A DNA stretch of 64,000 nucleotides, from the NCBI RefSeq assembly GCF_022814725.1, contig NZ_CP093442.1:1736001-1800000 (forward strand), in the 5' to 3' direction. This stretch comes from Bdellovibrio reynosensis (GTDB lineage: Bacteria > Bdellovibrionota > Bdellovibrionia > Bdellovibrionales > Bdellovibrionaceae). The notes under the pieces were generated by a model, which was not told where the DNA came from, made no database searches, and saw only the letters and a program-made list of their open reading frames with translations. Positions 17,763 through 53,393 of the stretch are shown here, piece after piece (the first letter of the stretch is position 1; every line of letters begins with the position of its first letter). The translations under genes and the position numbers were made by a program.

Positions 17763-18407
17763 ATGATGTACAAACTTATCGGAGCCGTGATTATTGCTGT
17801 AGCAGGCGTACTAGCCTATATGATTTTGCAAGATGAGCCAGGCTCTATCCTGAGCGCGAGAAAGGAAAAAACAGAAGCATCTGCTGAATGTGTGCAGTTA
17901 ACTCCTGCTCAGCAGTTAGCAAAAATGATCAACGATGATTTCAATAACTTGGCGCAAACTCAACAGCTTCCGGCAGCATGGAATTCCATCGCGACAGTAG
18001 AGCTTCGTATGAATTCACAGCTTGCAAAAACAATCCTAGGAAAAGAAAGACCTAGTATCCAAAGAGTAAAAGATGGGACGTCATATTTAGAATTAGAAAT
18101 CGTCGATCTTCCTGACGAAGAAAATCCAGGAATTATCATTCAAGCAAGTTTGTTCGACATTAAAACAAAAAACAAAATCTTCGAAATCGGCCGTACTTAC
18201 ACAATGAATGACTTAAATAAAGTAACTCCAGAGCCAGCTTCAGCAGCTACGCCTACAGCAGAAGCAAAGGAAAATACGCAAAGCGCAAGTCCAACAGCAA
18301 CGCCAGCACAACAGTCTCCGCAAGGAACCACGACAACAGAACCTGCTTCTTCACAAGATAAACAAGCGACGCCTGGTAACACTCAGGAACCTAAAATGAC
18401 GAAGTAA
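17763..18407 (+). CDS. Membrane-anchored protein with Thr/Pro/Ala-rich tail
   Basis: About 214 residues from the ATG at 17763, which has AGGAG 9 nt upstream; longer in-frame starts lack this. One N-terminal membrane segment (KLIGAVIIAVAGVLAYMIL) anchors a periplasmic part. About 40-135 is a folded region with two short strands (TVELRMNSQLAKTILG; YLELEIVDLPDEENPG). The last 65 residues are low-complexity Ala, Thr, Ser, Pro and Gln. No family was recognised and there is no catalytic motif. A short hairpin follows the stop. It stands alone between a divergent vWA lipoprotein gene and the heptamer array. Confidence 0.6.
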   Translation: MMYKLIGAVIIAVAGVLAYMILQDEPGSILSARKEKTEASAECVQLTPAQQLAKMINDDFNNLAQTQQLPAAWNSIATVELRMNSQLAKTILGKERPSIQRVKDGTSYLELEIVDLPDEENPGIIIQASLFDIKTKNKIFEIGRTYTMNDLNKVTPEPASAATPTAEAKENTQSASPTATPAQQSPQGTTTTEPASSQDKQATPGNTQEPKMTK

Positions 18408-18420
18408 GATTCCAGATAAA

Positions 18421-18447
18421 ATATGAGGGGCTATTGTCCCTTCATAT
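18421..18447 (+). terminator. Terminator-like hairpin
   Basis: ATATGAGGGG pairs with CCCTTCATAT around a short loop, 13 bp after the stop. The following sequence is CTTGTTATTTC, so the T-run is poor. Confidence 0.45.
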
Positions 18448-18523
18448 CTTGTTATTTCAATGAGGTTAAAAATTTTCCTTAGATAGTGAGCTTAATGTTC
18501 TTAAATTAACTTAGCTTCGTAGT

Positions 18524-18754
18524 TTCTTAGTTCTTTGTTCTTGGTTCTTGGTTCTTGATTCTTAGTTCTTAGTTCTTAGTTCTTGGTTCTTGGTTCTTAG
18601 TTCTTGGTTCTTGGTTCTTGGTTCTTGGTTCTTGGTTCTTAGTTCTTGGTTCTTAGTTCTTGGTTCTTGGTTCTTGGTTCTTGGTTCTTAGTTCTTGGTT
18701 CTTGGTTCTTGGTTCTTGGTTCTTAGTTCTTAGTTCTTGGTTCTTGGTTCTTAA
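18524..18754. repeat. Tandem array of 33 heptamers (TTCTTRG)
   Basis: 33 consecutive 7-bp units, almost all TTCTTGG or TTCTTAG, with single variants TTCTTTG, TTCTTGA and a terminal TTCTTAA. The phase is never broken across 231 bp. Both strands are open in places: the plus strand gives a repeated 7-residue string (WFLVLGS-like) because 21 nt equal three units. I treat this as a translation artefact, not a gene. The array fills most of the 450-bp gap before the next lipoprotein gene and ends 105 bp before its ATG. Such arrays change length by slippage or recombination. Confidence 0.97.
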
Positions 18755-18859
18755 ATTGTACTTCGTTGTTCGTAGCTGTTTGTTAGGTTTTTTAACTGCT
18801 TTTTCCCGTTCCTATGTTCGCGTTTGTTTTCGAAGTTCTCAGTTTTTTAGGAGTTATAA

Positions 18860-19882
18860 ATGAAAAATACCCTTATCGCGTTCTTTCTAATCTGTGGTGG
18901 ATGCACAACCGCTACAAAACCTTCAACGAAAACTGAAGTAACAAAAATTCCGCGGGCTTTCGACGCAGAGTTGTCGAACTATAAATATCCGTTTCCTGTT
19001 TCTTACTTCTCTCTGCATTCTCAAAAACAAAATCTGAAGATGGCGTACATGGACATCCCGGCGGGCAAAGATAACGACAACCAAGATAAGGTCATTGTTC
19101 TTTTCCATGGAAAAAACTTTCCCGGGGCTTACTTCGAACAAGTAATCCTAGGGCTAAATCAAGAAGGCTACAGAGTGATTGTTCCTGACCAAATCGGTTT
19201 CGGAAAATCATCAAAGCCACACCACTACCAATATAGTTTCCAAACTCTTGCCCAAAACACCCACGAACTTTTAAAAACTTTAAAGGTAGAAAAATTCACG
19301 CTACTAGGTCATTCCATGGGCGGAATGCTAGCGAGCCGATATACGTTGATGTATCCAGATCAAATCAAAAAACTAATTCTAGTAAATCCAATCGGCTTAG
19401 AAGATTGGAAAACAATGACAGGCTATAGAAATATAGATGAAGCTTTTAAGAGTGAGTTAGCTTCAACCCCAGAAAAATTAAAACAATACCAATTAGACAG
19501 CTACTATGACGGAAAGTGGAAACCTGAATACGACAAGTGGCTAGAAATCCCAAAAGGCTGGCTAGCAGACCCCGATTATCCAGTGATCGCCTGGAATGCC
19601 GCTTTAACCTCTGACATGATTTACACTCAACCAGTAGTTTACGAATTCAAAAATATCAAAGCACCAACAGTATTAATCGTAGGTCAAAGAGATAGAACGG
19701 CCATAGGCAAAGCCTGGGCACCACCAGACATAAAAGAAAAAATGGGAAATTACCCGGCCCTAGGAAAACAAGTCACAAAAATGTTCCCAAAAGCAAAACT
19801 AGTAGAACTACCAAAACTAGGACACATGCCCTTCATAGAAGATTTCGAACAATTCTGGACAGCCCTAACAAAGAACCTCTAA
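18860..19882 (+). CDS. Alpha/beta hydrolase lipoprotein
   Basis: A 340-residue protein. The signal is MKNTLIAFFLICGGCTT, with lipobox Cys at residue 15. The hydrolase core has the oxyanion region VLFHGKNFPG, the PDQIGFGKSSKP loop, nucleophile Ser in LLGHSMGGM, Asp in VGQRDRTA and His in LGHMPFIE, so the triad is complete. The pattern is that of MhpC/epoxide-hydrolase-like esterases. As a lipoprotein it should act at the periplasm or outer membrane. TAGGAG is 6-7 nt before the ATG. The heptamer array lies just upstream and could alter its transcription. A structured repeat element follows it. Confidence 0.87.
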   Translation: MKNTLIAFFLICGGCTTATKPSTKTEVTKIPRAFDAELSNYKYPFPVSYFSLHSQKQNLKMAYMDIPAGKDNDNQDKVIVLFHGKNFPGAYFEQVILGLNQEGYRVIVPDQIGFGKSSKPHHYQYSFQTLAQNTHELLKTLKVEKFTLLGHSMGGMLASRYTLMYPDQIKKLILVNPIGLEDWKTMTGYRNIDEAFKSELASTPEKLKQYQLDSYYDGKWKPEYDKWLEIPKGWLADPDYPVIAWNAALTSDMIYTQPVVYEFKNIKAPTVLIVGQRDRTAIGKAWAPPDIKEKMGNYPALGKQVTKMFPKAKLVELPKLGHMPFIEDFEQFWTALTKNL

Positions 19883-19934: not shown

Positions 19935-20130
19935 AAAAAGAAGCAGGCACCTTTAAAGCAAGAAATGCCGAAGGCATTGCGAGCGCAGCGAAGACCGAGG
20001 AACAAAGGTTGGCGAGAAGGGTTCAAGCGCAAGGCGGAAGCCTCTTCCCGCAGCGCAGGTGTGGCAGCGCCACATCGGAGCGAGGACAAGAGGATTCCAA
20101 CGCAGTCGATTGAGCCCTTATCGACGACCG
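19935..20130 (-). repeat. Dispersed structured intergenic element, copy A
   Basis: Shares its left end (AAAAAGAAGCAGGCACCTTT) with copy B and its middle and right end with copy C. The right end CAACGCAGTCGATTGRGCCC is common to all three. Inside, an AATGCC/GGCATT hairpin is followed by an outer helix (CCTCTT at 20041-20046 with AAGAGG at 20088-20093) enclosing GTGGCAGCGCCAC (20061-20073). On the minus strand the element begins just beyond the rRNA operon terminator. Between the hydrolase stop (19882) and this element I see nothing else. Confidence 0.8.
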
Positions 20131-53259: not shown

Positions 53260-53393
53260 CAAGAACCAAGGTTGGCGAGAAGGGTTCATATGCAAGGCGG
53301 AGGATCTTTCGCGAAACGCAGGCGTGGCAGCGCCACGTCGGAGAGAAGCGAAAGACCGCACAACGCAGTCGATTGGGCCCTTATCGGCGACCG
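53260..53393 (-). repeat. Dispersed structured intergenic element, copy C
   Basis: Matches copy A from AAGGTTGGCGAGAAGGGTTC through the right end CAACGCAGTCGATTGGGCCC and the following TTATCGRCGACCG. The outer helix TCTTTCGC (53305-53312) with GCGAAAGA (53348-53355) has a sequence different from copy A, while the enclosed GTGGCAGCGCCAC (53324-53336) is identical. On the minus strand it starts 3 bp past the rpoN stop. Confidence 0.82.

Follow-up and report, generated by a model that had tools for sequence, protein, structure and literature searches.

The question raised by this locus in Bdellovibrio reynosensis is whether an array of seven-base repeats placed just before a lipoprotein gene serves the expression of that gene or merely grew where it now lies. 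Positions are those of the window, that is, the whole 64,000-bp stretch of DNA analysed, which covers positions 1736001–1800000 of a complete single-contig chromosome of 3,582,323 bp. The features considered are as follows.

17763–18407, + strand: upstream gene, a conserved protein with an N-terminal membrane anchor (in synteny with the hydrolase gene in relatives; no Pfam family)
18408–18859, + strand: lineage-specific spacer between both genes, 452 bp (8–11 bp in nine relatives)
18421–18447, + strand: terminator-like hairpin just 3' of the upstream gene, 10 pairs with a weak T-rich tail
18498–18523, + strand: left copy of a degenerate flanking direct repeat, TTCTTAAATTAACTTAGCTTCGTAG (p ~0.02 versus shuffles)
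18524–18754, + strand: TTCTTRG heptanucleotide array, 33 units (20 G-type, 10 A-type and 3 variant)
18748–18775, + strand: right copy of the degenerate direct repeat, TTCTTAAATTGTACTTCGTTGTTCGTAG, overlapping the last array unit
18860–19882, + strand: downstream gene, an alpha/beta-hydrolase fold protein (Abhydrolase_1; lipoprotein by homology)

Sequence and extent of the array

The coordinates of the array, its 33 units, their common phase throughout the 231 bp and the distance of 105 bp to the ATG at 18860, all given in an earlier note on this DNA, were reproduced. The same note had described units that mix only G and A at one position, which holds for 30 of the 33 (TTCTTGG, n = 20; TTCTTAG, n = 10) but not for units 2, 5 and 33, which read TTCTTTG, TTCTTGA and TTCTTAA, respectively (n = 1 each). 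Because the array is interrupted, its longest perfect period-7 run is short, at 41 bp. No higher-order repeat emerged convincingly from the order of G-type and A-type units (best lag, 5 units; p ~0.05, uncorrected). Head-to-tail repetition of the 7-bp unit is far beyond chance and identifies the array as a heptanucleotide simple-sequence repeat: the double-unit pattern TTCTTRGTTCTTRG matched 27 times in the window and not once in 100 shuffles. Every match to this pattern in the genome falls inside the array, which is the only array of this unit on the chromosome. The array is non-coding; a coding array was considered and rejected, as only short frames (≤67 amino acids, TTG starts) cross it. 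The direct repeat at its flanks, about 28 bp long, may represent decayed units or the scar of a duplication.

The spacer between the two genes

The array takes up 231 of the 452 bp of the spacer, leaving flanks of 116 and 105 bp. For comparison, the intergenic distance was measured from the stop codon of the upstream gene to the start of the hydrolase gene in relatives that keep the upstream gene; it was 8–11 bp in nine of them, 89 bp in one and 155–167 bp in three. The array was missing from all congeners, and the orthologous site was found in relatives without it, which marks the array as specific to this lineage. Neither flank had a match in 23 congeners or elsewhere in the genome. Taken together, the compact gene pair in relatives and the unmatched flanks indicate that the whole spacer is a lineage-specific gain rather than an old promoter region, and its gain would have split an ancestral operon that seems to have been compact. 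If so, the local meaning of the locus is that a lineage-specific repeat can drive apart the two genes of a conserved operon.

The earlier note had placed a non-coding heptamer array in the promoter region of an alpha/beta-hydrolase lipoprotein gene. Its account of the array and of the gene stands, but the promoter region is not supported, because the site lies inside a tight operon in the closest relatives and because the + strand from 18408 to 18860 yielded no sigma-70-like promoter (the scan covers promoters of the sigma-70 type only). Folding of the spacer was no better than that of shuffled sequences (z −0.76) and the purine-rich strand of the array did not fold, so a structured RNA or DNA was rejected as a candidate. 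In the centroid fold of the spacer, the array is unpaired and the hairpin downstream of the upstream gene is retained.

The hydrolase is 76% identical to its nearest orthologue. Its lipobox in the window, LICGGC, is atypical, whereas the orthologues carry ordinary lipoprotein signals (e.g. LTAC). An rRNA operon on the opposite strand comes after the hydrolase gene.

TTCTTRG arrays in other genomes

At least three perfect TTCTTRG units were present in 5 of 141 genomes of the same order, this genome included, each time at a different site, and a draw of 291 genomes from the phylum added no further genome with at least three units. When a single genome of each species was scanned, at least 120 stretches proved to hold TTCTTRG arrays, which span at least ten phyla; among the 80 stretches listed are Planctomycetota, Bacteroidota, Verrucomicrobiota, Chloroflexota, Cyanobacteria, Pseudomonadota, Acidobacteriota, Actinomycetota, Nitrospirota, Spirochaetota, Fusobacteria and others. 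Arrays in the retrieved stretches reach 38 units and combine G-type and A-type units in 20 of 90 cases. The sites are mostly independent, with 86 arrays falling into 79 flank clusters. Many long arrays, of up to 38 units, were seen in a single Pirellulaceae metagenome-assembled genome, SJ586 (loci L062, L084, L110, L111 and L132); they occupy different sites, and several of the retrieved stretches end at or beside an array.

By a crude gene call, on which all locations relative to genes rest, the arrays lie mostly in intergenic positions, between same-direction genes in 36 cases, between convergent genes in 11 and between divergent genes in 6; a further 21 are inside open frames and 14 at the edges of contigs. 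Between same-direction genes, the unit showed no strand preference (19 versus 17). Convergent sites occur at least as often as divergent sites, i.e. divergent promoter regions are not preferred. A repeat that expands on its own would be expected to show such symmetry of strand and site, and the arrays do not resemble a common regulatory element.

Whether the unit itself is favored was approached through control heptamers. In the draw from the phylum, three successive TTCTTRG units occurred in 5 of 291 genomes, compared with 0, 2 and 0 for the controls, a modest difference. In a viral collection, TTCTTRG was found in 82 stretches, compared with 4, 4, 35 and 8 for control heptamers of the same composition and 7 and 3 for two heptamers known from the literature; this viral comparison is confounded, because the arrays lie mostly in open frames (66 of 81) and on related contigs, with only 41 flank clusters. 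Arrays of the TTCTTRG type are carried by 21 related viral contigs (loci L181, L197, L206 and L209 and 17 others). The TTCTTRG unit did not occur in any of the papers searched. A preference for this unit is plausible but unproven. It is possible, and we put it forward only tentatively, that TTCTTRG is intrinsically favored: it would arise and expand independently in most phyla of bacteria, with G and A alternating in the same way, owing to a property that their replication machineries have in common; if true, it would offer a natural test of seven bases as a special slippage length. What can be said of the distribution is that arrays of one heptamer recur in bacteria of many unrelated phyla, and that they are commoner than those of the control heptamers examined; this recurrence makes it directly testable why bacterial repeats favor seven bases and particular words.

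Origin and possible role of the array

The array belongs to a known kind, the bacterial heptanucleotide repeat; only the reappearance of one and the same unit in different phyla is mildly surprising. As in bacterial heptanucleotide long simple-sequence repeats generally, a 7-bp unit is repeated head to tail in many copies at an intergenic, lineage-specific site; the difference is that this genome has one array rather than many. The explanation we prefer, and consider fairly probable, is that a lineage-specific heptanucleotide repeat grew in a new, operon-splitting spacer, probably without a dedicated regulatory role. Growth would have proceeded by replication slippage or by unequal recombination or exchange at the seven-base unit, under little constraint, in the spacer that came to separate the two operon genes. 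At most, a spacer or leader of variable length, together with the hairpin of the upstream gene, might weaken the coupling of hydrolase lipoprotein expression to that of the upstream gene. The occurrence of TTCTTRG arrays at unrelated sites, with no preference for a strand or for divergent promoters, fits such slippage-born growth better than a conserved regulatory device. So does the published record, in which two papers, both describing a survey, give heptamers as over-represented among the repeats of many bacterial genomes, with polymerase slippage as the proposed cause (PMC4692102; PMC4679880). Against this explanation, 33 units is more than a purely neutral repeat would be expected to reach in a small genome that has no second TTCTTRG array. 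Moreover, a gene for a surface-type protein begins a short way downstream of the array, and repeats of variable length in such a position are often functional.

This position is an argument for a contingency locus, in which gain or loss of units in a leader or promoter would tune the hydrolase lipoprotein in a phase-variable or graded manner. By analogy, the nearest functional parallel is hmw1A of Haemophilus influenzae: the (ATCTTTC)n arrays of hmw1A/hmw2A likewise place a 7-bp unit ahead of a gene for a surface-type protein, the array of hmw1A lies between promoters and more copies of its unit lower expression (PMC8262952). In hmw1A/hmw2A, however, the units are of uniform sequence and stand between two mapped promoters, and variation has been shown (PMC8262952). 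Two features tested were not found here: the array does not abut −10/−35 elements in the sigma-70 scan, and the units are mixed (20 G-type, 10 A-type, 3 variants) rather than uniform. Although the unit has the same length and ends 105 bp from the ATG of an envelope-type protein gene, the lack of a promoter-like site abutting the array, the longest pure stretch of 41 bp, the absence of the array from all congeners and the indifference of arrays elsewhere to strand and promoter region make a contingency locus rather unlikely.

Two other published kinds of heptamer array can be compared. The G-rich arrays of Xanthomonas and Nostoc (GGGAATC and GGGGA(C/T)T) are intergenic, and the Nostoc unit has one two-way switch position, as does TTCTTRG (PMC4692102). 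They have runs of GGG or longer at many loci per genome, whereas the array described here offers only GG runs, at best a weak two-layer quadruplex, at a single locus. The TAACTGA direct repeats of Beggiatoaceae also show one heptamer recurring in distant lineages, mostly in intergenic positions, but they are numerous, count 2–6 units, lie close to start codons and use a different unit (PMC4679880).

A putative protein-binding platform, on DNA or in the mRNA leader, appears improbable. The candidate partner would be, for example, a cold-shock protein, a type that binds single-stranded pyrimidine-rich heptamers; CspB of Bacillus subtilis is reported to bind heptamer repeats, one protein per heptamer, with TTCTTTT bound more strongly (PMC4679880). 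The TTCTT pyrimidine tract in each unit and the unpaired state of the array in the centroid fold agree with such a platform, but the genome contains a single array, and in other genomes the arrays favor neither strand with respect to the genes.

Still less credence is given to the view that a mobile or dispersed element brought the heptamers into the operon as part of itself and left this remnant. The weak direct repeats flanking the array (p ~0.02) and the absence of the spacer in relatives would suit an insertion of this sort; against it, the flanks are unmatched elsewhere in the genome or genus, and the dispersed repeat family of this genome lacks the TTCTTRG heptamer. An assembly artefact or wrong unit count is hardly credible: tandem arrays are prone to miscounting, but this one spans only 231 bp, contains many units that can be told apart and lies in a genome of one complete contig.

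The earlier note had further mentioned a match at the left edge of an element C, as a hint of the array's origin or as chance, and a link of this kind was rejected. At 53261, the 10 matching bases lie across the left edge of a dispersed repeat, whose core begins AAGGTTGG, and the other aligned copies do not have the AAGAACC part; about 0.28 matches of 10 bases are expected by chance per window. As the bases before the core differ between the eight aligned copies, the match is uninformative on the origin of the array. The dispersed repeat is about 120 bp long, with the core AAGGTTGGCGAGAAGGGTTCA ... GCCCTTATCGRCGACC, and occupies 18 sites in the genome (at most 2 core mismatches). Copies lie in the window at about 20005–20125 and 53268–53390. 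The copies at chromosome positions 949653 and 1756005 have flanks in common, and the latter is located between the hydrolase gene and a 5S rRNA gene.
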